Below the pieces are notes generated by a model. The model saw only the letters and a list, made by a program, of their open reading frames with translations, was not told the DNA's origin and made no database searches. From assembly GCF_014397245.1 (NCBI RefSeq), contig NZ_JACLHY010000007.1, positions 1 through 64,000 of the forward strand: DNA of 64,000 nucleotides. The letters are read 5' to 3'. The stretch is from Arenibacter arenosicollis (GTDB lineage Bacteria; Bacteroidota; Bacteroidia; Flavobacteriales; Flavobacteriaceae). Positions 49,047-62,157 of this stretch are shown piece by piece. How positions within the stretch are numbered: the first letter of the stretch is position 1; every line of letters begins with the position of its first letter. Position numbers and translations under genes: made by a program.

Positions 49047-49874
49047 ATGACCAATAAAAAATTACTCCTTCCCATTCTGATATTTTCCATGCTATCCTGG
49101 TGTTATGGTCAGCACGAAAACAATAGGACCCAATTTTTCCCAAAAGTTGAATTGTCGGTAGAAAACGTTCCCGAAAAGGCAAATCTTTGGGTTTTTATGC
49201 TTGCAGGGCAATCCAATATGGCGGGACGTGGATTTGTAGAGCCACAGGACACCGTTCCCAATACAAGGGTATACACCATAAATAAACAAGGTGATATGAT
49301 ATATGCCAAGGAGCCGTTACATTTTTATGAACCATCAATGAGCGGTTTGGACAGTGGTCTTTCATTCGGCAAATCTCTCATCAAGCATATCCCGGACAGT
49401 ATATCGGTGCTCATAATTCCCACTGCGGTAGGGGGAAGCTCAATTTCACAATGGTTAAACGATTCCATCCATAGGGAAGTTAAACTATTCACCAATTTTA
49501 AAGAAAAAGCGGAATTGGGAATGCGTTTTGGGACAGTAAAAGGGATTCTTTGGCATCAGGGTGAAAGTGATGCCAAAACCAAGGAGGCTCCATTATACCA
49601 AATCAAATTATCGGAGTTGTTCTATCAATTCAGAAAAATCATTGGGAACCAAGAGGCAACCGTTGTAATAGGACAACTGGGCAGTTATTCGACCAATCCA
49701 TTGTGGTCGAAGATTAATGACCACATAAAATACTATATTTCCACAGATCCGAATGCAGGGATGATCAATACCCAGGACCTAAAAGAAAAAGGAGATAAGG
49801 TTCACTTTAATTCTGAAGCGCAAAGGATAATGGGCGAAAGATATGCCCTAGAATTTATGAAAATTCAAAATTAG
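49047..49874 (+). CDS. Secreted SGNH esterase (sialate O-acetylesterase/SASA family)
   Basis: A 275-residue exported protein with a signal peptide ending near CYGQ. The SASA (DUF303) family motifs are MLAGQSNMAGRG with nucleophile Ser56, AVGGSSISQW, LWHQGESDA (about 169-176) and DKVHFNSEAQ with the catalytic Asp/His. Such esterases remove acetyl groups from sialic acid or from hemicellulose and pectin. No sialic acid genes are in the window, so a plant or algal polysaccharide ester is as likely. Confidence 0.9.
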   Translation: MTNKKLLLPILIFSMLSWCYGQHENNRTQFFPKVELSVENVPEKANLWVFMLAGQSNMAGRGFVEPQDTVPNTRVYTINKQGDMIYAKEPLHFYEPSMSGLDSGLSFGKSLIKHIPDSISVLIIPTAVGGSSISQWLNDSIHREVKLFTNFKEKAELGMRFGTVKGILWHQGESDAKTKEAPLYQIKLSELFYQFRKIIGNQEATVVIGQLGSYSTNPLWSKINDHIKYYISTDPNAGMINTQDLKEKGDKVHFNSEAQRIMGERYALEFMKIQN

Positions 49875-52376: not shown

Positions 52377-52823
52377 CTAACTAAGCGCCTTAATATTGGC
52401 CTTAAGTCCGTCCATAATCCCTAAAATATTATTTACGGTTTCCTTTAAATAATATTTAATGAGTACGTGGGGGATACGAATGGTGGTAAATCCATTTTTA
52501 AACGAATGCATGGCTTCTTCCAAATCATTGATGGCTTGTTCGTGGGTAATGGAATGATATTCGGTATCGATTTCTATATTAAGTTTTACCCTAGATATAG
52601 CAATATCCACTGATTTTTTTCCATCCCACCATTCGAGCATTGGATTTACACCTGCGTTTTTTAAACCATAATATAATTGTATGGCTTCTTTGGGGGTCCT
52701 TTTGAGTTTAATTAGCTTTTCCATTCTGCTTTTATGCTTCGCACAAAGCTCTATTCCTAAAAGATCCATTGCGCTTTTATGGTCAAGATAACTAAGCTCT
52801 TTGTTACAATCTAAACATGTCAT
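52377..52823 (-). CDS. Small protein with N-terminal CCCH zinc finger and DUF559/Vsr-like nuclease-type core
   Basis: A 148-residue protein. The N-terminal 30 residues hold C3-x2-C6-x20-C27-x2-H30, a probable zinc finger. A helical stretch (34-58) follows, then SVDIAISRVKLNIEIDTEYH (71-90) and GFTTIRIPHVLI (111-122). This beta-strand pattern, with Asp73, Glu84 and Asp86, resembles PD-(D/E)XK folds of the DUF559/Vsr type, where a KLxIEIDGxxH strand is usual. It may nick or bind nucleic acid, and a repair or homing function is possible. No methylase or mobile element adjoins. The fold assignment is by pattern only. Confidence 0.55.
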   Translation of the reverse strand: MTCLDCNKELSYLDHKSAMDLLGIELCAKHKSRMEKLIKLKRTPKEAIQLYYGLKNAGVNPMLEWWDGKKSVDIAISRVKLNIEIDTEYHSITHEQAINDLEEAMHSFKNGFTTIRIPHVLIKYYLKETVNNILGIMDGLKANIKALS

Positions 52824-52868
52824 TCAAGTAGGTTAAAAATTTAATTTGGGACTATTATAACCCAATTA

Positions 52869-52901
52869 TTTTTGGATTATTATGTTGGGGTAATCCAAAA
52901 A
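52869..52901. repeat. 11-bp inverted repeat upstream of the DUF2891 operon
   Basis: tttttggatta and taatccaaaaa are perfectly complementary with an 11-base spacer. It lies between the divergent nuclease-like gene and the DUF2891 gene. It could be an operator or a terminator-like hairpin. Confidence 0.4.
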
Positions 52902-52904
52902 GGT

Positions 52905-52940
52905 CAACTTTTAGACGAACTGCAACTTTTTAGATGAACT
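52905..52940. repeat. Tandem imperfect direct repeat (17/18 bp)
   Basis: caacttttagacgaact is followed after one base by caactttttagatgaact, which differs by one T insertion and one c-to-t change. The spacing of 18 bases is near two helical turns, as for direct-repeat regulator sites. It is 100 bases upstream of the DUF2891 start. Confidence 0.45.
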
Positions 52941-53039
52941 ACCTCCTTTTTAAACCACTTGTTCTGTAAAATTTAAATATGCTTCCCCATTTTGTAATAT
53001 CCATATATATTTACATATTCACCATTACAAATCAAAACA

Positions 53040-54155
53040 ATGGATCCAAGACCAATACTGAAAACAATAGGTATAACTTTTTTAGTTTTTTTCCTTCACA
53101 TTAGCTGTAAGGATCAACAAAAGTCAGCACCAGAAAAAGATATCTCCCTAGCCGTCCCCGAACTTAGTTTTAATGAAGCCAACCGTTTGGCGCGTTTACC
53201 TTTGGAATGCCTACAGACAGAATATCCCAATAAATTGAACCAATCCCTTCAGGATTCCACACATCTAGGCGGACCTCAAGAACTGCACCCAGCATTTTAT
53301 GGATGTTTCGACTGGCATTCATCGGTTCACGGTCATTGGTCCTTAGTTTCACTGTTAAAACAGTTCCCAAGTTTAAATCAGGCTTCCACAATCCGAAATA
53401 AGTTGGTAGAAAATATTTCCAAGGAAAATATAATAGGGGAATTGGCCTATTTTAATATGGAAGGTAATAAATCCTATGAACGGACATATGGCTGGGCTTG
53501 GATCCTTAAATTGGCAGAAGAGCTTCACACTTGGAACGACCCCTTGGCCCGTGATCTAGAGGTAAATTTGCAACCATTAATAGATTATATAGTAGCTGCT
53601 TACGTAGATTTTTTACCTAAATTAAATTACCCCATTCGGGTAGGAGAACATTCCAATACCGCATTTGGACTTTCCATGGCTTGGGATTATGCCATTGTAA
53701 TGGAGGATGACACTTTAAAAAATGCCATTATTTCCAGTGTAGCACGTTTTTATGAAAATGATGCCGATTGCCCTATAACTTGGGAACCCAGTGGATTCGA
53801 TTTTTTATCCCCTTGCTTGGAGGAGGCCAATCTGGTCAGAAAAATTTACGGCCCCGAAAAGTTCAAAAAATGGTTGGACAAATTTTTGCCGCAATTGAAA
53901 AATGTTCAATTTAATCTTGAACCGGGAAAGGTTTCGGACAGAACGGATGGAAAATTGGTGCATTTGGATGGACTTAATTTTAGTAGGGCTTGGTGTTTGT
54001 ACGGAATTGCGGAAACACTTCCCGAATACACCCATTTAAAACAAATTGCCACTGAACATATAAATTACTCCCTTCCCAATATAGTAGACGACAATTATAG
54101 TGGAACCCATTGGTTGGGAAGTTTTGCATTATACGCTTTAAATAAGGCCAAATAA
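53040..54155 (+). CDS. DUF2891-family lipoprotein
   Basis: A 371-residue exported protein with a lipobox HISC (Cys23). The rest is one DUF2891 domain: ELHPAFYGCFDWHSSVHGHW (about 80-99), ERTYGWAWILKLAEEL, YPIRVGEHSNTAFGLSMAWDYA, PSGFDFLSPCLEEA, HLDGLNFSRAWCLYGIAE and THWLGSFALYAL. The many conserved His, Trp and Asp residues suggest an (alpha/alpha)-barrel enzyme, but its activity is not established to my knowledge. The next ATG follows after one base (TAATATG), so it is translated with the Nramp-like transporter. It may act on the transported compound. Confidence 0.85.
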   Translation: MDPRPILKTIGITFLVFFLHISCKDQQKSAPEKDISLAVPELSFNEANRLARLPLECLQTEYPNKLNQSLQDSTHLGGPQELHPAFYGCFDWHSSVHGHWSLVSLLKQFPSLNQASTIRNKLVENISKENIIGELAYFNMEGNKSYERTYGWAWILKLAEELHTWNDPLARDLEVNLQPLIDYIVAAYVDFLPKLNYPIRVGEHSNTAFGLSMAWDYAIVMEDDTLKNAIISSVARFYENDADCPITWEPSGFDFLSPCLEEANLVRKIYGPEKFKKWLDKFLPQLKNVQFNLEPGKVSDRTDGKLVHLDGLNFSRAWCLYGIAETLPEYTHLKQIATEHINYSLPNIVDDNYSGTHWLGSFALYALNKAK

Positions 54156-54156
54156 T

Positions 54157-55350
54157 ATGTTTAGGAAAATGGGGCCAGGTGTTGTGGTAGCTGCAGCCTT
54201 TATTGGGCCAGGTACCGTTACGGTATGCACCTTTGCCGGGGTACAATTTGGATATACCTTGCTATGGGCCATGTTACTTTCCATAGTGGCTACGGTAGTC
54301 TTACAACAAATGGCGGCGAGATTGGGAATTGTTACCCAAAAAGGTCTGGCGCATGTCATAAAAGAAGAAATAGGTGTTGAATGGATAAAGATTTTAGTGC
54401 TAGGATTGATCTTATCCGCAATAGTTATAGGTAATGCCGCCTATGAAGGAGGCAATATTGGAGGTGCTTCTTTGGGACTTGTGGCCATATTTGGGCAAGA
54501 ATACCTTAGTTTCTACCCTTTTGCCATTGGTCTTGTTGCTTTTTTACTTTTGTTCTTTGGCAATTATAAATTATTGGAAAAGGTATTTGTAACCTTGGTA
54601 GTGATCATGAGCTTATCATTTATATTGACGGCCATAATTACAAAACCTGATATTTTAGCCATATTACAAGGTCTTTTTACCCCAAAAGTTCCAGAAGGAA
54701 GTATTCTGACCATCATCGCTTTGGTCGGCACTACCGTGGTACCTTATAATTTATTTTTGCATACTTCCCTAGTAAGTGAAAAATGGAAATCCACAGCTAA
54801 TTTAAAGGATGCGGAAAGAGATACCGTTTTATCCATCGTTTTGGGCGGTATGGTTTCAATGGCAGTAATGGTTACCGCAACTGCAATACCTTCCAAGGAA
54901 ATTAACAATATAATGGATATGGCTCAAGGCTTGGAACCACTTTATGGGAACAGTGCCAGATATTTTATGGGAATTGGATTATTTGCTGCCGGAACAACCT
55001 CTGCAATAACAGCCCCCTTGGCCGCCGCATATGTCGCCAATAGCTGTTTTGGATGGAATACCACTATGAAGGATATACGATTCAAGTTGGTTTGGATGGT
55101 AATCATATTGGTGGGTGTTCTATTTATGTCCATAGGAATAAAACCCTTGGAAATCATCAAATTTGCCCAAGTGACAAATGGTATGTTATTGCCAATTATC
55201 GCTGTTTTTTTACTATGGGTCGTAAACCGGAAAACAGTGATGCTGCAATATCGGAATACCTTGATTGAAAATATATTGGGAATTATCATCATTCTTTTAT
55301 CCGTAATATTGGGAGTAAAGAGTATACTAACTGTTTTTGAACTATTTTGA
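54157..55350 (+). CDS. Nramp-fold transporter lacking the metal-binding motifs (YcsG-like)
   Basis: A 397-residue membrane protein with about eleven helices and an Nramp-like sequence throughout (GPGVVVAAAFIGPGTVTVCT; FGYTLLWAMLLSIVATVVLQ; RLGIVTQKGLA; VVPYNLFLHTSLVSEKW). In metal-transporting Nramps helix 1 carries DPGN and helix 6 carries MPH. Here they read GPGT (residues 17-20) and VPY (195-197), so the metal-coordinating Asp, Asn, Met and the His are all absent. With pxpA starting at its stop codon, the context resembles the B. subtilis ycsF-ycsG-kip cluster. I infer transport of 5-oxoproline or another organic substrate rather than Mn/Fe. Confidence 0.85.
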   Translation: MFRKMGPGVVVAAAFIGPGTVTVCTFAGVQFGYTLLWAMLLSIVATVVLQQMAARLGIVTQKGLAHVIKEEIGVEWIKILVLGLILSAIVIGNAAYEGGNIGGASLGLVAIFGQEYLSFYPFAIGLVAFLLLFFGNYKLLEKVFVTLVVIMSLSFILTAIITKPDILAILQGLFTPKVPEGSILTIIALVGTTVVPYNLFLHTSLVSEKWKSTANLKDAERDTVLSIVLGGMVSMAVMVTATAIPSKEINNIMDMAQGLEPLYGNSARYFMGIGLFAAGTTSAITAPLAAAYVANSCFGWNTTMKDIRFKLVWMVIILVGVLFMSIGIKPLEIIKFAQVTNGMLLPIIAVFLLWVVNRKTVMLQYRNTLIENILGIIIILLSVILGVKSILTVFELF

Positions 55351-55355
55351 GTAGT

Positions 55356-56093
55356 ATGATCAATATCGATATAAATTGCGACCTAGGGGAGGGTATGGGC
55401 AATGAATCTCAAATAATGCCCCTTATATCTTCATGTAATATAGCCTGCGGCGGCCATGCCGGTGATAATGGGACCATGATGCGGGTTGCCCGTCTGGCCA
55501 AAGAACACCATGTCCTAATTGGGGCACATCCATCCTATCCTGATCGTGAAAATTTTGGAAGAATTTCGATCAATATTTCTGAAAAGGAATTGAAAAAAAA
55601 TATCCTTGCCCAAATAGGGAATTTAAATTTGGCACTGAAGTCCCTGGGAATGAGGTTAAACCATATAAAACCACATGGTGCTTTGTACAACGACATTGCC
55701 AAGGACAGGAAATTAGCCGCAGTCTTTTTAAATAGTATAGAGGAGTACAAAAAAGACGTTTATTTATATGTTCCCTATCGATCAAAAATAGAAGAGGAAG
55801 CTTTACAATTGGGATTTCGGGTAAAATATGAGGCCTTCGCCGATCGAAATTATAAGCCAGACCTCTCCCTGGTTTCCAGAAAGGAATCTGCGGCTTTGAT
55901 TCAAGATCCCAAAGCGGTTTTGAACCATATACTTCATATGGTGCAAAAGGGTGCCGTTTTAACCTTGTCCGGTAAGGCAGTAAAACTCAAGGCGGACACC
56001 TATTGTATTCACGGAGATTCTCCTGCAACATTACAAATATTAATGTATCTTTCACAACATTTACCAAAGAACCAAATCTTAATAAAGAAGTGA
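55356..56093 (+). CDS. pxpA: 5-oxoprolinase subunit A (LamB/YcsF family)
   Basis: 245 residues from ATG 55356 (MINIDINCDLGEGMG), which gives the family-typical N-terminus. A TTG at 55347 overlapping the transporter stop is possible. Motifs are ISSCNIACGGHAGD, VLIGAHPSYPDRENFGR, LNHIKPHGALYNDIAKD, EAFADRNYKPDLSLVSR and YCIHGDSPATLQIL, all diagnostic of PxpA. With PxpB and PxpC it hydrolyses 5-oxoproline to glutamate using ATP. It is downstream of the Nramp-like gene by 5 bases and overlaps pxpB. Confidence 0.95.
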   Translation: MINIDINCDLGEGMGNESQIMPLISSCNIACGGHAGDNGTMMRVARLAKEHHVLIGAHPSYPDRENFGRISINISEKELKKNILAQIGNLNLALKSLGMRLNHIKPHGALYNDIAKDRKLAAVFLNSIEEYKKDVYLYVPYRSKIEEEALQLGFRVKYEAFADRNYKPDLSLVSRKESAALIQDPKAVLNHILHMVQKGAVLTLSGKAVKLKADTYCIHGDSPATLQILMYLSQHLPKNQILIKK

Positions 56094-56827
56094 GCAATTT
56101 CAAAATATCGGTCAGGCAATTTGGGGTACATGCCATATTAGTTGAATGGCCCAATAAGGTGGATGAGTCCATATTGGATGAGATTCTTCAGTTTATTCAA
56201 TATTTAAAGAAAAATCAATTAAGTGAAAAGGAGTGGGAATTTGTTCCAGCTTATAATTCACTTACTTTGATTTGCAAAGATACTGTCCTAGATTTCGATT
56301 ATTTTAAACCAAAAATAAAAGAGTGGTATAGTTTAATAAAAAAGGTATCACATGCAACAAGGTATCTTTGGAGGTTACCGGTAAGTTACGATTTGGAATT
56401 TGGCTTGGATCTCCAGGAAATTTCAAGTCAATTGGGATTGGAAGTAAATCGTATAATAGAACTACATTCCAAGAGTATTTATACGGTCTATGGAATAGGT
56501 TTTTTACCTGGATTTATGTATTTGGGCGGAGTGCCTGAAGCTTTGGAAGTTCCACGTAAATCTACTCCAAGATCGAAGGTACCTGCAGGTTCTGTAGGTC
56601 TTGCGGGCAAACAAACTGGGATTTATCCCCAAGATTCACCGGGAGGATGGAATATTATTGGTAAATGTCCTATACCCATGTTTAACGTAAAGAACGAAAA
56701 TCCTTGTTTCGTTACCGTTGGTGATCAAATTCAATTTTATCCAATTTCGATGGCCGAATACCAATTGCACAAAATAGAAGCTGAGGTAGGGATATATAAC
56801 ATAGAAAAAATAGTGCTCAATGCTTAA
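56090..56827 (+). CDS. pxpB: 5-oxoprolinase subunit B (KipI/PxpB)
   Basis: 245 residues from GTG 56090, overlapping the pxpA stop (GTGA). An in-frame ATG at 56003 lies deep in pxpA and is rejected. The protein begins with VRQFGVHAILVEW and holds the allophanate-hydrolase subunit 1 motifs GFLPGFMYLGGVPEALEVPR, RSKVPAGSVGLAGKQTGIYP and SPGGWNIIGKCP. KipI of B. subtilis, its homologue, was first known as an inhibitor of the sporulation kinase KinA. Here the role in oxoprolinase is the simple reading. It overlaps pxpC by 8 bases. Confidence 0.94.
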   Translation: MSNFKISVRQFGVHAILVEWPNKVDESILDEILQFIQYLKKNQLSEKEWEFVPAYNSLTLICKDTVLDFDYFKPKIKEWYSLIKKVSHATRYLWRLPVSYDLEFGLDLQEISSQLGLEVNRIIELHSKSIYTVYGIGFLPGFMYLGGVPEALEVPRKSTPRSKVPAGSVGLAGKQTGIYPQDSPGGWNIIGKCPIPMFNVKNENPCFVTVGDQIQFYPISMAEYQLHKIEAEVGIYNIEKIVLNA

Positions 56828-57659
56828 CATTTTAAAATCGGGCTTTTTCACTACAGTACAGGATACTGGCAGATTTGGATATAGGGATAAAGGTGTTCCT
56901 GTGGCAGGGGTAATGGATTCCTTTTCTACATCCAAGGTAAATACATTGTTGGAAAACGATGAGAAATGCGCGGTTTTGGAAATAACCATGACGGGCCCCA
57001 AATTGGAATTTGAAGAAGATACCTATATTGTTTTAGGCGGTGCGGAAATGTCGGTCACCCTGAACGATATTGCCTTGGAGAACTACAAAGTTTATAAAGT
57101 AAAAAGTGGCGATATTTTAAGCTATGGAAAATTGGAAAAAGGTTTCCGGGCTTATTTGGGGATAAAGGATGGATTCAATACAGAGCTCGTATTGGGAAGT
57201 AGGTCCTTTTTTAAACCAATTACCAATAAAGATTCCATTAAAAAAATGCCCGATCTTCCCTATGCCACTTGCAAACAATTCAATCCAAAAATTTCCGAAC
57301 TTAAGGTAGATTCCGTATTGGATAAATCCGTTTTGGAGGTATACAAGGGGCCGGAATATAAACTTTTAACGGATAACCAATTAGGCAAATTGTTCTATCG
57401 GGAATTTTCCGTGGCCAACGAAAATAACCGTATGGCATATCAGTTAAATGAGACAATAGAAGAAAACAAAGTTTCCATGTTAACCTCGGCCACACTCCCA
57501 GGAACGGTACAATTGACTCCTTCTGGAAAATTAATAGTGTTAATGAAAGACGGACAAACTACCGGTGGCTATCCCAGAATTTTGCAGTTATCAGATATGG
57601 CCATGTCCATTTTAGCTCAAAAAAGATCCGGAGACCACATTAAGTTTAAATTAAAATAG
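56820..57659 (+). CDS. pxpC: 5-oxoprolinase subunit C (KipA/PxpC)
   Basis: A 279-residue biotin-dependent-carboxylase-like (allophanate hydrolase subunit 2) protein. Motifs are FTTVQDTGRFGYRDKGVPVAGVMDSFS, NDEKCAVLEITMTGPKLEF, VLGGAEMSVTLN and SATLPGTVQLTPSGKLIVLMKDGQTTGGYPRI. It joins PxpB to form the ATP-using half of 5-oxoprolinase. It is the last gene of the DUF2891-transporter-pxpABC operon and is followed by a strong terminator. It is slightly shorter than some homologues but has all core motifs. Confidence 0.94.
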   Translation: MLNILKSGFFTTVQDTGRFGYRDKGVPVAGVMDSFSTSKVNTLLENDEKCAVLEITMTGPKLEFEEDTYIVLGGAEMSVTLNDIALENYKVYKVKSGDILSYGKLEKGFRAYLGIKDGFNTELVLGSRSFFKPITNKDSIKKMPDLPYATCKQFNPKISELKVDSVLDKSVLEVYKGPEYKLLTDNQLGKLFYREFSVANENNRMAYQLNETIEENKVSMLTSATLPGTVQLTPSGKLIVLMKDGQTTGGYPRILQLSDMAMSILAQKRSGDHIKFKLK

Positions 57660-57794
57660 CCACTGCATATTTATTTCTTTGTGAATTAAATAATAATAAC
57701 TAATTTTACTGCAATGAAAATAAATGTAAACATAATCAATGTAGTCATTATTGTCCCATAAGGGGGATGATACGGATTTTCTATTGATTAAAAG

Positions 57795-57830
57795 AGCCTG
57801 TATCAGATATATTTGATACAGGCTTTTTTT
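57795..57830 (+). terminator. Terminator of the pxp operon
   Basis: agcctgtatca and tgatacaggct form an 11-bp perfect stem with an 8-base loop, followed by seven T. It ends the pxp transcript about 135 bases after pxpC. The rest of 57660-58084 holds the ilvD promoter and no gene. Confidence 0.93.
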
Positions 57831-58084: not shown

Positions 58085-59761
58085 ATGGAATTAAATAAAT
58101 TTAGTAAAAACGTTACCCAGGACCCTACGCAACCGGCTGCTCAAGCCATGTTATATGCCATTGGTTTGGATGAAGAGGATTTAAAAAAACCTTTGATCGG
58201 AATAGGTAGTACAGGTTATGAGGGGAATCCTTGTAATATGCACTTAAATGATTTGGCCCAGGAAGTAAAACTGGGGACAGAAAAAGGCGGCTTGGTCGGG
58301 CTTGTGTTCAATACTATCGGAGTAAGTGATGGTATTTCCATGGGGACTTACGGTATGCGTTATTCATTACCTTCTAGAGATATCATTGCAGATTCCATGG
58401 AAACCGTGGTACAAGCTATGAACTACGATGGTCTTGTTACAGTTGTGGGATGTGATAAGAATATGCCGGGAGCGCTTATGGCCATGATTAGATTAAACAG
58501 ACCTTCTGTTTTGGTGTATGGTGGTACCATTGCCTCTGGGTGTTTTAAAGATAAGAAGTTGGATATCGTTTCTGCCTTCGAAGCATGGGGCGAAAAGGTT
58601 GCCGGGACCATGAACGAAGCAGATTTTAAAGGTGTGATTCAAAATGCTTGTCCAGGAGCTGGGGCTTGTGGTGGTATGTACACCGCGAATACCATGGCTT
58701 CGGCAATAGAAGCTTTGGGTATGGCTTTGCCATACAATTCTTCCAACCCTGCCATTGGCAAAGAAAAGAAACAGGATGCAATAAGTGCTGGTTTTGCATT
58801 AAGACATTTATTGGAAAATGATATTAAGCCTAGCGACATCATTACCAGAAAATCCTTTGAGAATGCTGTGCGTTTGCTAACCCTTTTAGGAGGATCCACC
58901 AACGCAGTGCTTCACTTCTTGGCCATAGCGAAAGCTGCAGATGTTGAATTTACATTGGATGACTTTCAAAGAATTAGTGATACAACTCCATTTTTGGCGG
59001 ATTTAAAACCTAGCGGCAAATACTTAATGGAAGATCTACATCGTGTAGGTGGTACTCCAGCGGTTATGAAGTTTATGCTGGAAAACGGAATGTTGCATGG
59101 CGATTGTTTAACCATAACCGGAAAAACCGTTGCCGAAAATCTTGCGGACGTTCCAAGTTTAAAAGAAGGACAGGAAATAATTAAGCCATTGAACGCGCCT
59201 ATCAAGGCGTCAGGACACTTAAGAATATTGTACGGAAATCTTGCTGAAGAGGGAGCCGTTGCGAAAATTACAGGTAAAGAAGGATTACATTTTAGTGGTC
59301 CTGCCAAAGTTTTTGACGATGAATTTTTGGCCAATGCCGGTATCGGAAAAGGATTGGTTAAAAAGGGAGATGTAGTGGTTATACGTTATGAAGGCCCTAA
59401 AGGTGGTCCAGGGATGCCCGAAATGTTGAAGCCCACCGCTGCCATAATGGGTGCTGGTCTTGGTAAAGATGTTGCCTTAATTACAGATGGCCGTTTTTCA
59501 GGGGGTACACACGGTTTTGTTGTGGGACATGTATGCCCAGAAGCTCAGGATGGTGGTACAATAGCCTTGTTAAAAGATGGGGATATAATTACCATTGATG
59601 CTGAAAAAAATAGTATTTCGGTGGCTTTGTCCGAGGAAGAGATCAAGACTCGTAGGGCTAATTGGGTACAACCTCCTTTAAAAGTTAAAAAAGGTACTTT
59701 ATATAAATACGCAAGAACCGTTTCCTCGGCCTCACAAGGTTGTGTTACCGACGAAATTTAA
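58085..59761 (+). CDS. ilvD: Dihydroxy-acid dehydratase
   Basis: A 558-residue iron-sulfur enzyme of valine and isoleucine synthesis. Cluster cysteines lie in [27 protein letters not shown] and [34 protein letters not shown] and the C-terminal [24 protein letters not shown] are family signatures. It dehydrates 2,3-dihydroxy-isovalerate and -methylvalerate to the keto acids in the cytoplasm. It leads ilvD-ilvB-ilvN-ilvC-ilvA, and the length is standard. Confidence 0.97.
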
Positions 59762-59837
59762 GATAAGGGAGATAATTTCCCCAAAAAAAATAATTAAAGT
59801 TTTATACCAAGTATGTTAACCGATTAGGTCTACAATT

Positions 59838-61571
59838 ATGGAAACATTGAAAAAGGAAAAAGCAGCGTCAACAAAGCAGAGCACTATGAGGATCACTGGT
59901 GCAGAGGCTATCATCCATTGCCTATTGGCCGAGGGTGTAGATTTAATTTATGGTTATCCTGGAGGGGCAATTATGCCTCTGTATGATGAATTGTATAAAT
60001 TTCAACATAAACTTACGCATATATTAACAAGGCACGAGCAGGGCGCTACCCATGCAGCGCAAGGGTACGCTAGGGTAACCGGAAAAGTAGGTGTTGCCGT
60101 GGCCACTTCAGGTCCTGGCGCCACCAACTTGATTACCGGCATAGCAGATGCCCAGATAGATTCGACTCCAATGGTCTGTATTACAGGTCAGGTAGCAAGA
60201 CATTTGCTGGGTTCAGACGCGTTTCAGGAAACTGATATTATTGGAATTTCCACTCCTGTAACCAAATGGAACTGTCAAGTGACCAAGGCCTCTGAAATTC
60301 CAGAGGTATTGGCAAAGGCTTTCTATATTGCAAAATCCGGTAGACCTGGACCAGTATTGGTGGATATAACCAAAAATGCCCAAATTGATGAGTTCGATTT
60401 TTCATATGAACATTGCAAAGGGGTTCGGAGTTACAATCCATACCCTAAACCAAACCCAAAAGCTATTGAGGAGGCAGCCAATTTAATCAATGCGGCCAAA
60501 AAGCCTTTTATCGTTTTTGGACAAGGTGTAATTTTAGGGGAAGCAGAAGAACAACTTAAAAGCTTGGTAGAGAAAGCAGGTATTCCTGCTGCTTGGACAG
60601 TACTTGGACTTTCGGCAATGGATACGGACCATCCCTTAAATGTAGGAATGGTGGGAATGCACGGCAATTACGGACCTAATTTATTGACGAATGAATGCGA
60701 TGTGCTTATTGCCATTGGCATGCGCTTTGACGATAGGGTTACCGGAAGTTTGGACACCTATGCCAAACAGGCAAAAATTATCCATTTCGACATAGACCCA
60801 GCTGAAATAAACAAAAACGTGAAAGCCGATGTTGCGGTCTTGGGCGATTCCAAAGTAACCTTGGATTTGCTATTGCCTTTGATCAAAACCAATAAGCATG
60901 AATCCTGGCACAATGAGTTTAAGGAAAAATATAAGATAGAATTTGATCAGATCATTAAAAATGATGTTTATCCTACTAAGGATAAACTCACCATGGCGGA
61001 AGTTATTGAGGAAATCAATATAGCCAGTGGTCATAAGGCAATTATAGTATCGGATGTTGGTCAGCACCAAATGATAGCATGTAGATATGCCAAATTTAAA
61101 CAGACCAAAAGTAATGTTACCTCCGGTGGATTGGGAACTATGGGGTTTGCTTTACCAGCAGCAATAGGAGCCAAAATGGGGGCCATGGATAGGGAAGTAG
61201 TGGCCATTATTGGTGATGGTGGATATCAAATGACGATTCAGGAGTTGGGAACTATCTTTCAAAACAAGACCCCTGTTAAGATCGTGGTACTAAACAATGA
61301 TCATTTGGGAATGGTACGCCAGTGGCAGGAACTATTCTTTGAAAGTAGATATGCATCAACGGTAATGGTAAATCCGGACTTTGTGAAAATTGCTGAAGGT
61401 TATCATATAGAATCTAAGCGCATTAGCGAGAGAAAGGATTTAAAGTCGACCATTAAGGAAATGTTGGCTTCCAAAGATGCTTACTTTTTGGAAGTTAAAG
61501 TTGAAAAGGAAGATAATGTTTTTCCAATGATTCCTTCAGGAGCATCGGTATCGGATATACGTCTTAAATAA
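59838..61571 (+). CDS. ilvB: Acetolactate synthase large subunit
   Basis: A 577-residue ThDP enzyme. YGYPGGAIMPLYDEL and the catalytic Glu in RHEQGATHAAQGYARVTGK are present, with TSGPGATNLITGIADAQID. FAD-contact and middle domains follow, and the ThDP motif is IIGDGGYQMTIQELGTIF...NNDHLGMVRQWQELFF. It joins two pyruvates, or pyruvate and 2-oxobutyrate, as the first step of branched-chain amino acid synthesis. The gap after ilvD is 76 bases and ilvN follows after 61 bases. Confidence 0.97.
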   Translation: METLKKEKAASTKQSTMRITGAEAIIHCLLAEGVDLIYGYPGGAIMPLYDELYKFQHKLTHILTRHEQGATHAAQGYARVTGKVGVAVATSGPGATNLITGIADAQIDSTPMVCITGQVARHLLGSDAFQETDIIGISTPVTKWNCQVTKASEIPEVLAKAFYIAKSGRPGPVLVDITKNAQIDEFDFSYEHCKGVRSYNPYPKPNPKAIEEAANLINAAKKPFIVFGQGVILGEAEEQLKSLVEKAGIPAAWTVLGLSAMDTDHPLNVGMVGMHGNYGPNLLTNECDVLIAIGMRFDDRVTGSLDTYAKQAKIIHFDIDPAEINKNVKADVAVLGDSKVTLDLLLPLIKTNKHESWHNEFKEKYKIEFDQIIKNDVYPTKDKLTMAEVIEEINIASGHKAIIVSDVGQHQMIACRYAKFKQTKSNVTSGGLGTMGFALPAAIGAKMGAMDREVVAIIGDGGYQMTIQELGTIFQNKTPVKIVVLNNDHLGMVRQWQELFFESRYASTVMVNPDFVKIAEGYHIESKRISERKDLKSTIKEMLASKDAYFLEVKVEKEDNVFPMIPSGASVSDIRLK

Positions 61572-61632
61572 AATAAATATTAATTAAAATTGCCCATAAC
61601 CTTATATTTAGATTAAGGATTGGGATGAGGAG

Positions 61633-62157
61633 ATGGAAAAAAAATGGTTTACAATTTCAGTATACTCCGAGAATAGCGTTGGGTTACTGAACAGAATATC
61701 AGGAATATTCTTAAAGCGACATATAAACATAGAGAGTTTAAATGTTTCAAAATCGGAAATAGAACACGTGTCCAAATTCACGATTGTTGTGTACACCACA
61801 GAAGATTGGGTCCGCAATATTGTTGGACAGGTCGAAAAACAAATTGAGGTCATTAAGGCCTTCTACCATACCGATGAAGAAACCATTTATCAGGAATCGG
61901 CTTTATTTAAAGTGGCTTCCACTTTATTGTTCGATGAACGAAATATTCAAAATATCATTAAGGACAGTAACTCCCAAATTGTTACTGTGTCCAGAGATTT
62001 CTTTGTTTTGGCAAAAAGTGGCAGAAGAAATGAAATAGATGATATGTACCAACAATTGAAACCCTATGGCATTATGCAATTTGTACGCTCTGGGCGGATA
62101 GCGGTTACTAAATCGGAAATGAAAATTTCATCATTATTAAAAGAGTTTAATCAATAA
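61633..62157 (+). CDS. ilvN: Acetolactate synthase small (regulatory) subunit
   Basis: A 174-residue regulatory subunit. The N-terminal ACT domain reads WFTISVYSENSVGLLNRISGIFLKRHINIESLNVSKSE, and the C-terminal domain has ALFKVASTLL, GRRNEIDDMYQQLKPYGIMQFVRSGRIAVTK. It binds valine for feedback inhibition and activates IlvB. It lies in operon order between ilvB and ilvC and has normal length. Confidence 0.95.
   Translation: MEKKWFTISVYSENSVGLLNRISGIFLKRHINIESLNVSKSEIEHVSKFTIVVYTTEDWVRNIVGQVEKQIEVIKAFYHTDEETIYQESALFKVASTLLFDERNIQNIIKDSNSQIVTVSRDFFVLAKSGRRNEIDDMYQQLKPYGIMQFVRSGRIAVTKSEMKISSLLKEFNQ

Follow-up and report, generated by a model that had tools for sequence, protein, structure and literature searches.

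Why do the genes for a DUF2891 protein and an Nramp-fold protein stand directly ahead of those for the three subunits of 5-oxoprolinase in Arenibacter arenosicollis? The question arises from five co-directional open reading frames (ORFs) on the + strand (53040-57659) of the window, that is, the whole stretch of 64,000 nucleotides analysed here from contig NZ_JACLHY010000007.1. They encode a DUF2891 protein, an Nramp-fold protein, PxpA, PxpB and PxpC, in this order, with spacings of +1, +5, -4 and -8 bases. As judged from sequence, the five genes probably constitute a module for the uptake and hydrolysis, and hence salvage, of 5-oxoproline, in which the DUF2891 protein would be an accessory enzyme feeding the importer. 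In the proposed pathway, the DUF2891 lipoprotein would work outside the inner membrane and convert a related compound, unusable by the importer or by PxpABC, to L-5-oxoproline. The Nramp-fold protein without metal residues would then import 5-oxoproline over the inner membrane, as suggested by its neighbours and by the PxpT precedent, and PxpABC would open the lactam with ATP to produce glutamate. A preliminary description of the locus had reported five head-to-tail genes with spacings from +5 to -8 bases and had taken them as one unit. The former was borne out by the ORF coordinates and Pfam, the latter by the spacing and by the same order in five more sampled f1 genomes, f1 being the window's family, and in a single genome from Pseudomonadota (L204). 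The arrangement, recurring in this way, is not due to chance.

The Pseudomonadota locus (L204:8236-13013) lies in genome G412, which was sampled from the phylum of a Trinickia genome. It contains genes for DUF2891, Nramp, PxpA, PxpB and PxpC, each of which overlaps or nearly touches the next; the Nramp carries IGPGTVT and IVPYNLF, and the N-terminus of the DUF2891 protein is lipoprotein-like by eye. In gene order, the products are 41, 44, 39, 31 and 28% identical to those of the window, and G+C is 60% as compared with 39% in the window. Based on these distant identities and the G+C gap, the five-gene arrangement appears to be old or to have been assembled twice, not to be a local accident.

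The hydrolase part of the locus is recognised readily. PxpA (55356..56093, +) scores 286 bits with PF03746, far over the cut-off, and 270.3 with NF003814 (cut-off 226); its start is either ATG at 55356, leaving a gap of 5 bases after the Nramp gene, or TTG at 55347, giving an overlap of 4. The pxpB gene (56090..56827, +) begins with GTG and overlaps pxpA by 4 bases, and its product reaches 230 bits with PF02682, again far over the cut-off, and 174.1 with TIGR00370 (cut-off 145.55). The pxpC gene (56820..57659, +) overlaps pxpB by 8 bases, and its product scores 222.3 bits with PF02626, far over the Pfam cut-off. Since PxpC falls under the cut-offs of NF045499 (172 against 500) and TIGR00724 (209.3 against 230.2), its assignment is taken from Pfam and gene order. 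Opening of the lactam with ATP to give glutamate is established for the PxpABC family and is inferred for the window.

The Nramp-fold gene (54157..55350, +) encodes 397 amino acids and is the presumed 5-oxoproline importer, based on PF01566 (301.1 bits, far over the cut-off), motifs, a tree and neighbours. The protein scores 118.6 with NF037982 (divalent metal transporter; cut-off 50) and falls under the cut-off in both MntH models, NF001923 and TIGR01197. DPGN in transmembrane segment 1 (TM1) and MPH in TM6 are the metal-binding motifs of MntH-type Nramps. When the window protein was aligned with Nramps carrying DPGN and MPH, GPGT was found in TM1 (FIGPGTVT, 54199..54222, +) and VPY in TM6 (GTTVVPYNLF, 54727..54756, +), so that the term "motif-less" in the preliminary description proved apt. 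The TM1 Asp and Asn and the TM6 Met and His are substituted in the window and in all 27 lineage rows examined. The metal motifs are missing in 27/27 rows of this lineage and in 6/6 YcsG-type rows and are kept in 4/4 MntH-like rows (DPGN, MPH), with one further row, Meso201, showing neither pattern. The six YcsG-type plasmid proteins carry GPG in TM1 and GGY in TM6. Their label denotes gene order and homology, neither B. subtilis YcsG nor C. glutamicum PxpT being among the proteins compared; the YcsG-type genes of Klebsiella, Lactiplantibacillus and Bacillus badius adjoin PxpA, and the Ilyobacter gene does not.

The window Nramp shares 24% identity with the YcsG-type protein of Klebsiella, 21% with that of B. 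badius, 21 and 26% with two MntH types, and 45-48% with two haloarchaeal plasmid proteins (L141, L142). In a 37-row tree, five YcsG-type rows split off on a branch of length 4.14 with 100/100 support, leaving the window on the other side, and the six YcsG-type rows including B. badius likewise stand apart from the window. All 32 GPG rows were separated from the five others with 100/99 support. A single clade of window-type and haloarchaeal Nramps was present in the best tree and was rejected as unsupported (21/0). By sequence comparison, the window Nramp appears to be a second lineage (IGPGT/VVPY) with a similar motif change, not a PxpT orthologue.

An Nramp protein encoded with pxp genes already has a published role. 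In C. glutamicum pxpTABC, the Nramp-family protein PxpT, 50% identical to B. subtilis YcsG, is needed for growth on 5-oxoproline, as shown by deletion and complementation, and YcsG is cited for the same (PMC13274462). Both pxpTABC and B. subtilis ycsF-ycsG-kipI-kipA share with the window an Nramp gene and pxpABC in one operon, and the six YcsG-type relatives, including one from a Bacillus badius plasmid whose gene adjoins that of PxpA, also have GPG in TM1. The window differs in its Nramp lineage (21-24% identity) and in the added DUF2891 gene. Because the identity to the YcsG type is 24%, no nearer than to MntH types, the PxpT precedent holds by analogy only. The transporter had been described as lacking an assigned role, which is outdated for Nramp-pxp operons in the light of PxpT (PMC13274462). 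The uptake route proposed at the same time keeps its outline, with PxpABC following an Nramp-fold importer and an exported accessory DUF2891 protein, and is partly in print already.

The neighbours of this Nramp lineage were surveyed in 296 genomes of the window's phylum, among the first 36, 26 and 44 listed matches by E-value, with identities of 46-100, 31-41 and 27-35%; weaker matches fall outside the count. In the nearest group, which includes the window, 31 of 36 lie within 2 kb of pxpA and one adjoins a hydantoinase-B/oxoprolinase gene. In the second group pxpA is nearby in 0/26, and a hydantoinase-B/oxoprolinase gene lies within 6 kb in 13/26, whereas neither was found near any of the 44 next listed matches. 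In 20 Nramp loci read directly, OplA adjoins the Nramp or lies close to it in L177, L184, L186, L187 and L196, and HyuAB accompanies it in L195; for L190 and L193, the neighbour survey puts a hydantoinase-B gene at a distance of 2.1 kb. OplA-length fused genes stand beside some Nramps of the lineage. In two haloarchaeal plasmids (L141, 6983-11819; L142, 6977-12589), an IGPGT Nramp directly precedes HyuA-HyuB. These loci resemble the window in the IGPGT motif, in the 45-48% identical Nramp and in its position directly ahead of an oxoprolinase/hydantoinase, and differ in having HyuAB in place of PxpABC and no annotated DUF2891 in the stretch. No paper pairing Nramp with hydantoinase was found in the literature searched. 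PxpABC and OplA/HyuAB are unrelated enzyme families. The main ground for 5-oxoproline or a related cyclic amide as the substrate is that one Nramp lineage accompanies these two kinds of oxoprolinase.

Some members of the survey have other surroundings. An Nramp subgroup with FVGPGTVL in TM1 (L183, L185, L189) lies beside genes resembling 2-oxoacid:ferredoxin oxidoreductase by eye, with oxoprolinase absent nearby; three Nramps of family f8 (L178-L180) have no pxp or Hyu neighbour; and L142 also contains a gene resembling arylmalonate decarboxylase or Asp-Glu-hydantoin racemase.

The first gene (53040..54155, +) encodes the DUF2891 protein of 371 amino acids, which scores 451.6 bits with PF11199, far over the cut-off; a DUF2891 match was absent from the NCBIfam scan. 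The structure model has a mean predicted local distance difference test score of 87.5, and its best structural match is the C. jejuni protein CJ0554 in crystal structures 8ieu and 8iev (8ieu, Z 43.9, 40% identity). No literature on this CJ0554 structure was found, and for DUF2891, with its two crystal entries, no assigned reaction was found in the literature. The next fold matches by Foldseek are cellobiose 2-epimerase and unsaturated glucuronyl hydrolase at Z ~15-16.6, together with complement C3d-like barrels. AGE-type sugar epimerases and GH88 enzymes thus have the helical barrel in common with the DUF2891 model, at 6-10% identity in the listed rows; Z of this size in helical folds may reflect only the common arrangement. 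Among 20 diverse members, six motifs contain residues that are invariant or at least 90% kept: FxGxxDWHSxVH, ERxYGxxW, RxGxHxN, EPxxxxFxS, SDxxD with HLxGL, and HWL. In the window model these fall at or just before the helix starts at 92, 150, 207, 258, 308 and 356. Several His, Glu/Asp and Arg residues, if they cluster near one barrel end, would be consistent with catalysis on a small acid.

The DUF2891 protein of the window appears to be exported and lipoprotein-like. Its N-terminus has a hydrophobic stretch ending in a lipobox-like Cys23 (codon 53106..53108, +), the presumed lipid-anchored residue; such signals were judged by an author-made hydrophobicity measure and a loose pattern following the lipobox rules, without a trained predictor. 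The lipoprotein-like N-terminus agrees with the preliminary description, in which the protein was taken to be surface-anchored. The hydrophobic stretch is found in the window protein and in all 24 others of its phylum, and a lipobox-like Cys in 9/9 DUF2891 proteins paired with this Nramp (eight by pattern, the window included, and L204 by eye). The DUF2891 genes linked to DUF979 are built differently. The distance from the DUF979 stop to the DUF2891 core motif, measured in 36 of 38 cases, is 40-56 codons in 34/36 and 60 and 85 codons in the others, while the core alone takes up 46-49 residues in signal-less members; since the distance is about the core length, most DUF979-linked DUF2891 proteins have no room for a signal peptide. 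A survey of 78 of the 80 best-matching genome-collection loci (L106 and L129, lacking an anchor, were left out) gave one possible export signal (L132).

In a DUF2891 tree of 55 rows, a single old change separates the exported from the cytosolic forms: the 9 rows with an Nramp partner all fall on the exported side and the 15 with a DUF979 partner all on the other, so that repeated emergence of the exported form finds no support. The tree covers a quarter of the 80 loci and others, without L129 and with very long branches for L049 and L050; location was taken from the signal survey for the sampled loci and from the N-terminus for L209. Elsewhere, DUF2891 is seemingly split into two pieces in L051 (G047) and in L022/L027 (G057), and L207 (G522) and L208 (G504) contain very distant DUF2891-like sequences of 26-31% identity (over 96 residues in L208), possibly a sister family.

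Does DUF2891 recur with 5-oxoproline genes? Loci were examined for a query set of Pxp, Nramp, OplA, HyuAB, DUF969/979, Pcp and gamma-glutamyltranspeptidase (GGT). In the window's phylum DUF2891 is present in 25/296 genomes, and DUF2891-Nramp-pxpABC in 6/25: the window, L028, L030, L031, L032 and L034, the five others all belonging to f1 and L028 having pxpA 1.2 kb past the Nramp. Furthermore, L041 has DUF2891, Nramp and then GGT, and L049 has DUF2891, an OplA-type gene and Nramp. The search for DUF2891 beside pxpA across Bacteroidota, suggested in the preliminary description, thus found the pair in these six genomes and not generally there, 17/25 being without a query-set neighbour in the stretch fetched. 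PxpA exceeds the cut-off in 57/296 genomes, one further genome falling under it; it is found in 10/25 genomes with DUF2891 and 47/271 without (p 0.014, ignoring relatedness). Enrichment of any oxoprolinase candidate with DUF2891 was not significant in this phylum (12/25 against 89/271, p 0.13).

The association is real across phyla and involves several different 5-oxoproline systems. The Pseudomonadota sample of 239 genomes has 14 with DUF2891, among them the very distant relatives in G504 and G522 (26-31% identity); its centre G296 was chosen for having DUF2891, and G383 is a partial match. DUF979 exceeds the cut-off in 8/14 genomes with DUF2891 and 7/225 without (p 7e-8), and PxpA or hydantoinase-B is found in 14/14 and 69/125, respectively (p 0.0008), the latter rate drawn from the 132 genomes searched for oxoprolinases. 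Directly adjoining DUF2891 in the 14 are DUF979 in six (G451, G456, G484, G507, G536, G551), an OplA-type gene in G468, Nramp-pxpABC in G412, and none of these in the other six. In the genome collection, the best 80 of at least 586 DUF2891 loci, biased to relatives of the query, contain DUF979 in 38, DUF969 in 36, OplA-type genes in 17 and PxpABC in one. For 11 of the 42 loci without adjoining DUF979, DUF979 is found elsewhere in the genome; genes recurring near these 42, leucine-degradation-like by eye and from Burkholderiaceae, were judged incidental. Of 55 plasmid records with DUF2891 (35 from Klebsiella), nine were opened, and five (Klebsiella, Sphingomonas, Niveispirillum, Streptomyces, Gemmatirosa) have DUF979 beside it. 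In the Streptomyces plasmid (L057:3126-9002) and in G507 (L211), Pcp adjoins DUF2891 along with pxpABC, DUF969 and DUF979. In two Roseomonas-like bacteria (L054:6955-8975; L064:6967-8963), a P1-family peptidase gene overlaps the DUF2891 start.

A link of DUF2891 to oxoprolinase had been thought undescribed, which needs correcting: a connection of DUF2891 with 5-oxoproline has been published for C. jejuni, where cj0552-4 encode DUF969, DUF979 and DUF2891 and the deletion mutant cannot grow on 5-oxoproline, a phenotype that the authors attribute to DUF969/979 (PMC12795558). Like the window, cj0552-cj0554 place DUF2891 in a 5-oxoproline operon; unlike it, the transporter is DUF969/DUF979 instead of Nramp, and the DUF979-linked class mostly lacks room for a signal peptide, a class-wide statement not read from the CJ0554 N-terminus. 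Elsewhere, cj0552-cj0554 are among the down-regulated biofilm clusters (PMC7176700), oxoprolinase, DUF969, DUF979 and DUF2891 appear in a table as clusters numbered next to one another (PMC10040529), a B. megaterium model assumes DUF969/DUF979 to be a pyroglutamate transporter (PMC6904757), and PMC10434189 does no more than list a P. gingivalis gene.

What DUF2891 would do chemically is a matter of two nearly balanced proposals. Isomerisation of D- to L-5-oxoproline is slightly preferred, because the modeled barrel lies near sugar epimerases and the family recurs with PxpABC, OplA-type genes and Pcp alike; racemisation would explain a use for DUF2891 inside as well as outside the membrane, and next to Pcp. 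On this basis it is tentatively proposed that DUF2891 represents a novel family of enzymes with a helical barrel, which would act as racemases or otherwise convert a compound unusable by transporter or hydrolase to L-5-oxoproline. The exported form would be coupled to a second specialised Nramp importer, present in haloarchaea, in the window's phylum and in one or more Pseudomonadota genomes, and the cytosolic form to DUF969/DUF979. A chemistry of almost the same likelihood is release of 5-oxoproline from pyroglutamyl or gamma-glutamyl compounds. The preliminary description had pictured DUF2891 as releasing or processing a pyroglutamyl compound outside; in a model of this kind, an exported enzyme would cut or cyclise pyroglutamyl or gamma-glutamyl compounds there so that the Nramp imports free 5-oxoproline, and this model is an equally tentative candidate. 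It would explain the exported, lipoprotein-like form of DUF2891 wherever it is Nramp-paired and the GGT gene after DUF2891-Nramp in L041, and Pcp lies beside DUF2891 in the Streptomyces plasmid and G507. However, the room for a signal peptide is missing in most DUF979 operons (34/36 gaps of at most 56 codons), the Pcp alongside in L057 and L211 would be redundant, and the fold matches listed comprise sugar epimerases, glycosidases and C3d-type barrels, although a peptidase could have escaped Foldseek.

It is rather unlikely that the GPGT Nramp lineage imports a wider range of cyclic amides, such as hydantoins and other lactams, with 5-oxoproline as one of them. Such a range would suit the HyuA-HyuB genes that accompany the Nramp in both haloarchaeal plasmids and in some members of the window's phylum, and the HyuAB/OplA families act on several ring substrates. 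Yet the partner of the nearest relatives is PxpA (31/36), of a complex known as 5-oxoprolinase, and other members stand by OplA-length fused genes. Still less probable is a manganese or other metal importer supplying the pathway with its metal. The Nramp fold and the NF037982 score fit this, and for YcsG, also named MntG, cell Mn rose upon overexpression and a mutant lacking three Mn importers was unobtainable (PMC10448178); on the other hand, the metal residues of TM1 and TM6 are substituted throughout the lineage, which associates with two kinds of oxoprolinase. That DUF2891 is a passenger, its position uninformative on function, is the least probable of all: although 17/25 DUF2891 genes of the window's phylum lack neighbours of the 5-oxoproline kind and oxoprolinase candidates are not enriched there, the pairing with 5-oxoproline genes is repeated in several phyla, DUF979 co-occurs significantly, and L204 has the identical five-gene order.

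Several observations weigh against the salvage module with its accessory DUF2891 enzyme. The window Nramp is no closer to the YcsG type (24%) than to MntH types (21, 26%), and 13/26 of the distant Nramps of its lineage have no oxoprolinase gene nearby. A Mn2+ importer has been claimed for YcsG, and its earlier phenotype could be polar (PMC10448178). On the side of DUF2891, no query-set gene is found in the fetched stretch of 17/25 genomes of the window's phylum, in 42 of the best 80 loci, or in the Agarilytica, Roseomonas, Burkholderia plantarii and Novosphingobium plasmids (4/9). The agreement of location with partner is not replicated evidence, because it stems from a single change on the DUF2891 tree, and the neighbour and co-occurrence counts ignore common descent. 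Finally, the E. coli, B. subtilis and C. glutamicum control genomes have PxpA and no DUF2891. The pathway as such can thus do without DUF2891, which for the same reason resembles an accessory that broadens the range of usable substrates rather than a component of the hydrolase.

Upstream of the five genes lies a presumed promoter region of 216 bases (52824..53039, +) between divergent genes, the upstream one at 52377-52823 on the - strand. A sigma-70 scan gave 29 sites against 26.6 expected, so no promoter was demonstrated. Terminator-like sites in the 8 kb region numbered 10 against 7.9 expected by chance, and only a hairpin of 18 pairs with a T-rich tail (57790..57829, +), found by the hairpin scan, is noteworthy. 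The Pfam scan of the neighbouring genes did not reveal a regulator. Past the hairpin, genes resembling ilvD, ilvB and ilvN of branched-chain amino acid synthesis were read by eye (58085-62157), and about 3 kb upstream lies a sialic-acid-specific acetylesterase-like gene with a SASA domain (49047-49874).

5-Oxoproline is a common by-product, formed spontaneously from glutamine and glutamate, and its salvage therefore matters to many cells; its transport is known for few bacteria. The Nramp-pxpABC link and one operon-level 5-oxoproline phenotype involving DUF2891 are already known. New are the second Nramp lineage, a DUF2891 family divided between two compartments and the five-gene order conserved across phyla. 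New, too, is that in several phyla DUF2891 recurs with PxpABC, OplA-type genes, Pcp, GGT and DUF969/DUF979, with many copies standing alone. The neighbourhoods gathered here narrow the likely DUF2891 substrates to a few purchasable compounds. If the reading is true, a metal-transporter fold has been repurposed for a cyclic amino acid in an Nramp lineage that lacks the metal motifs and, across two domains of life, accompanies oxoprolinases of two kinds, and it would be a warning against annotating these Nramp-fold proteins as manganese transporters.

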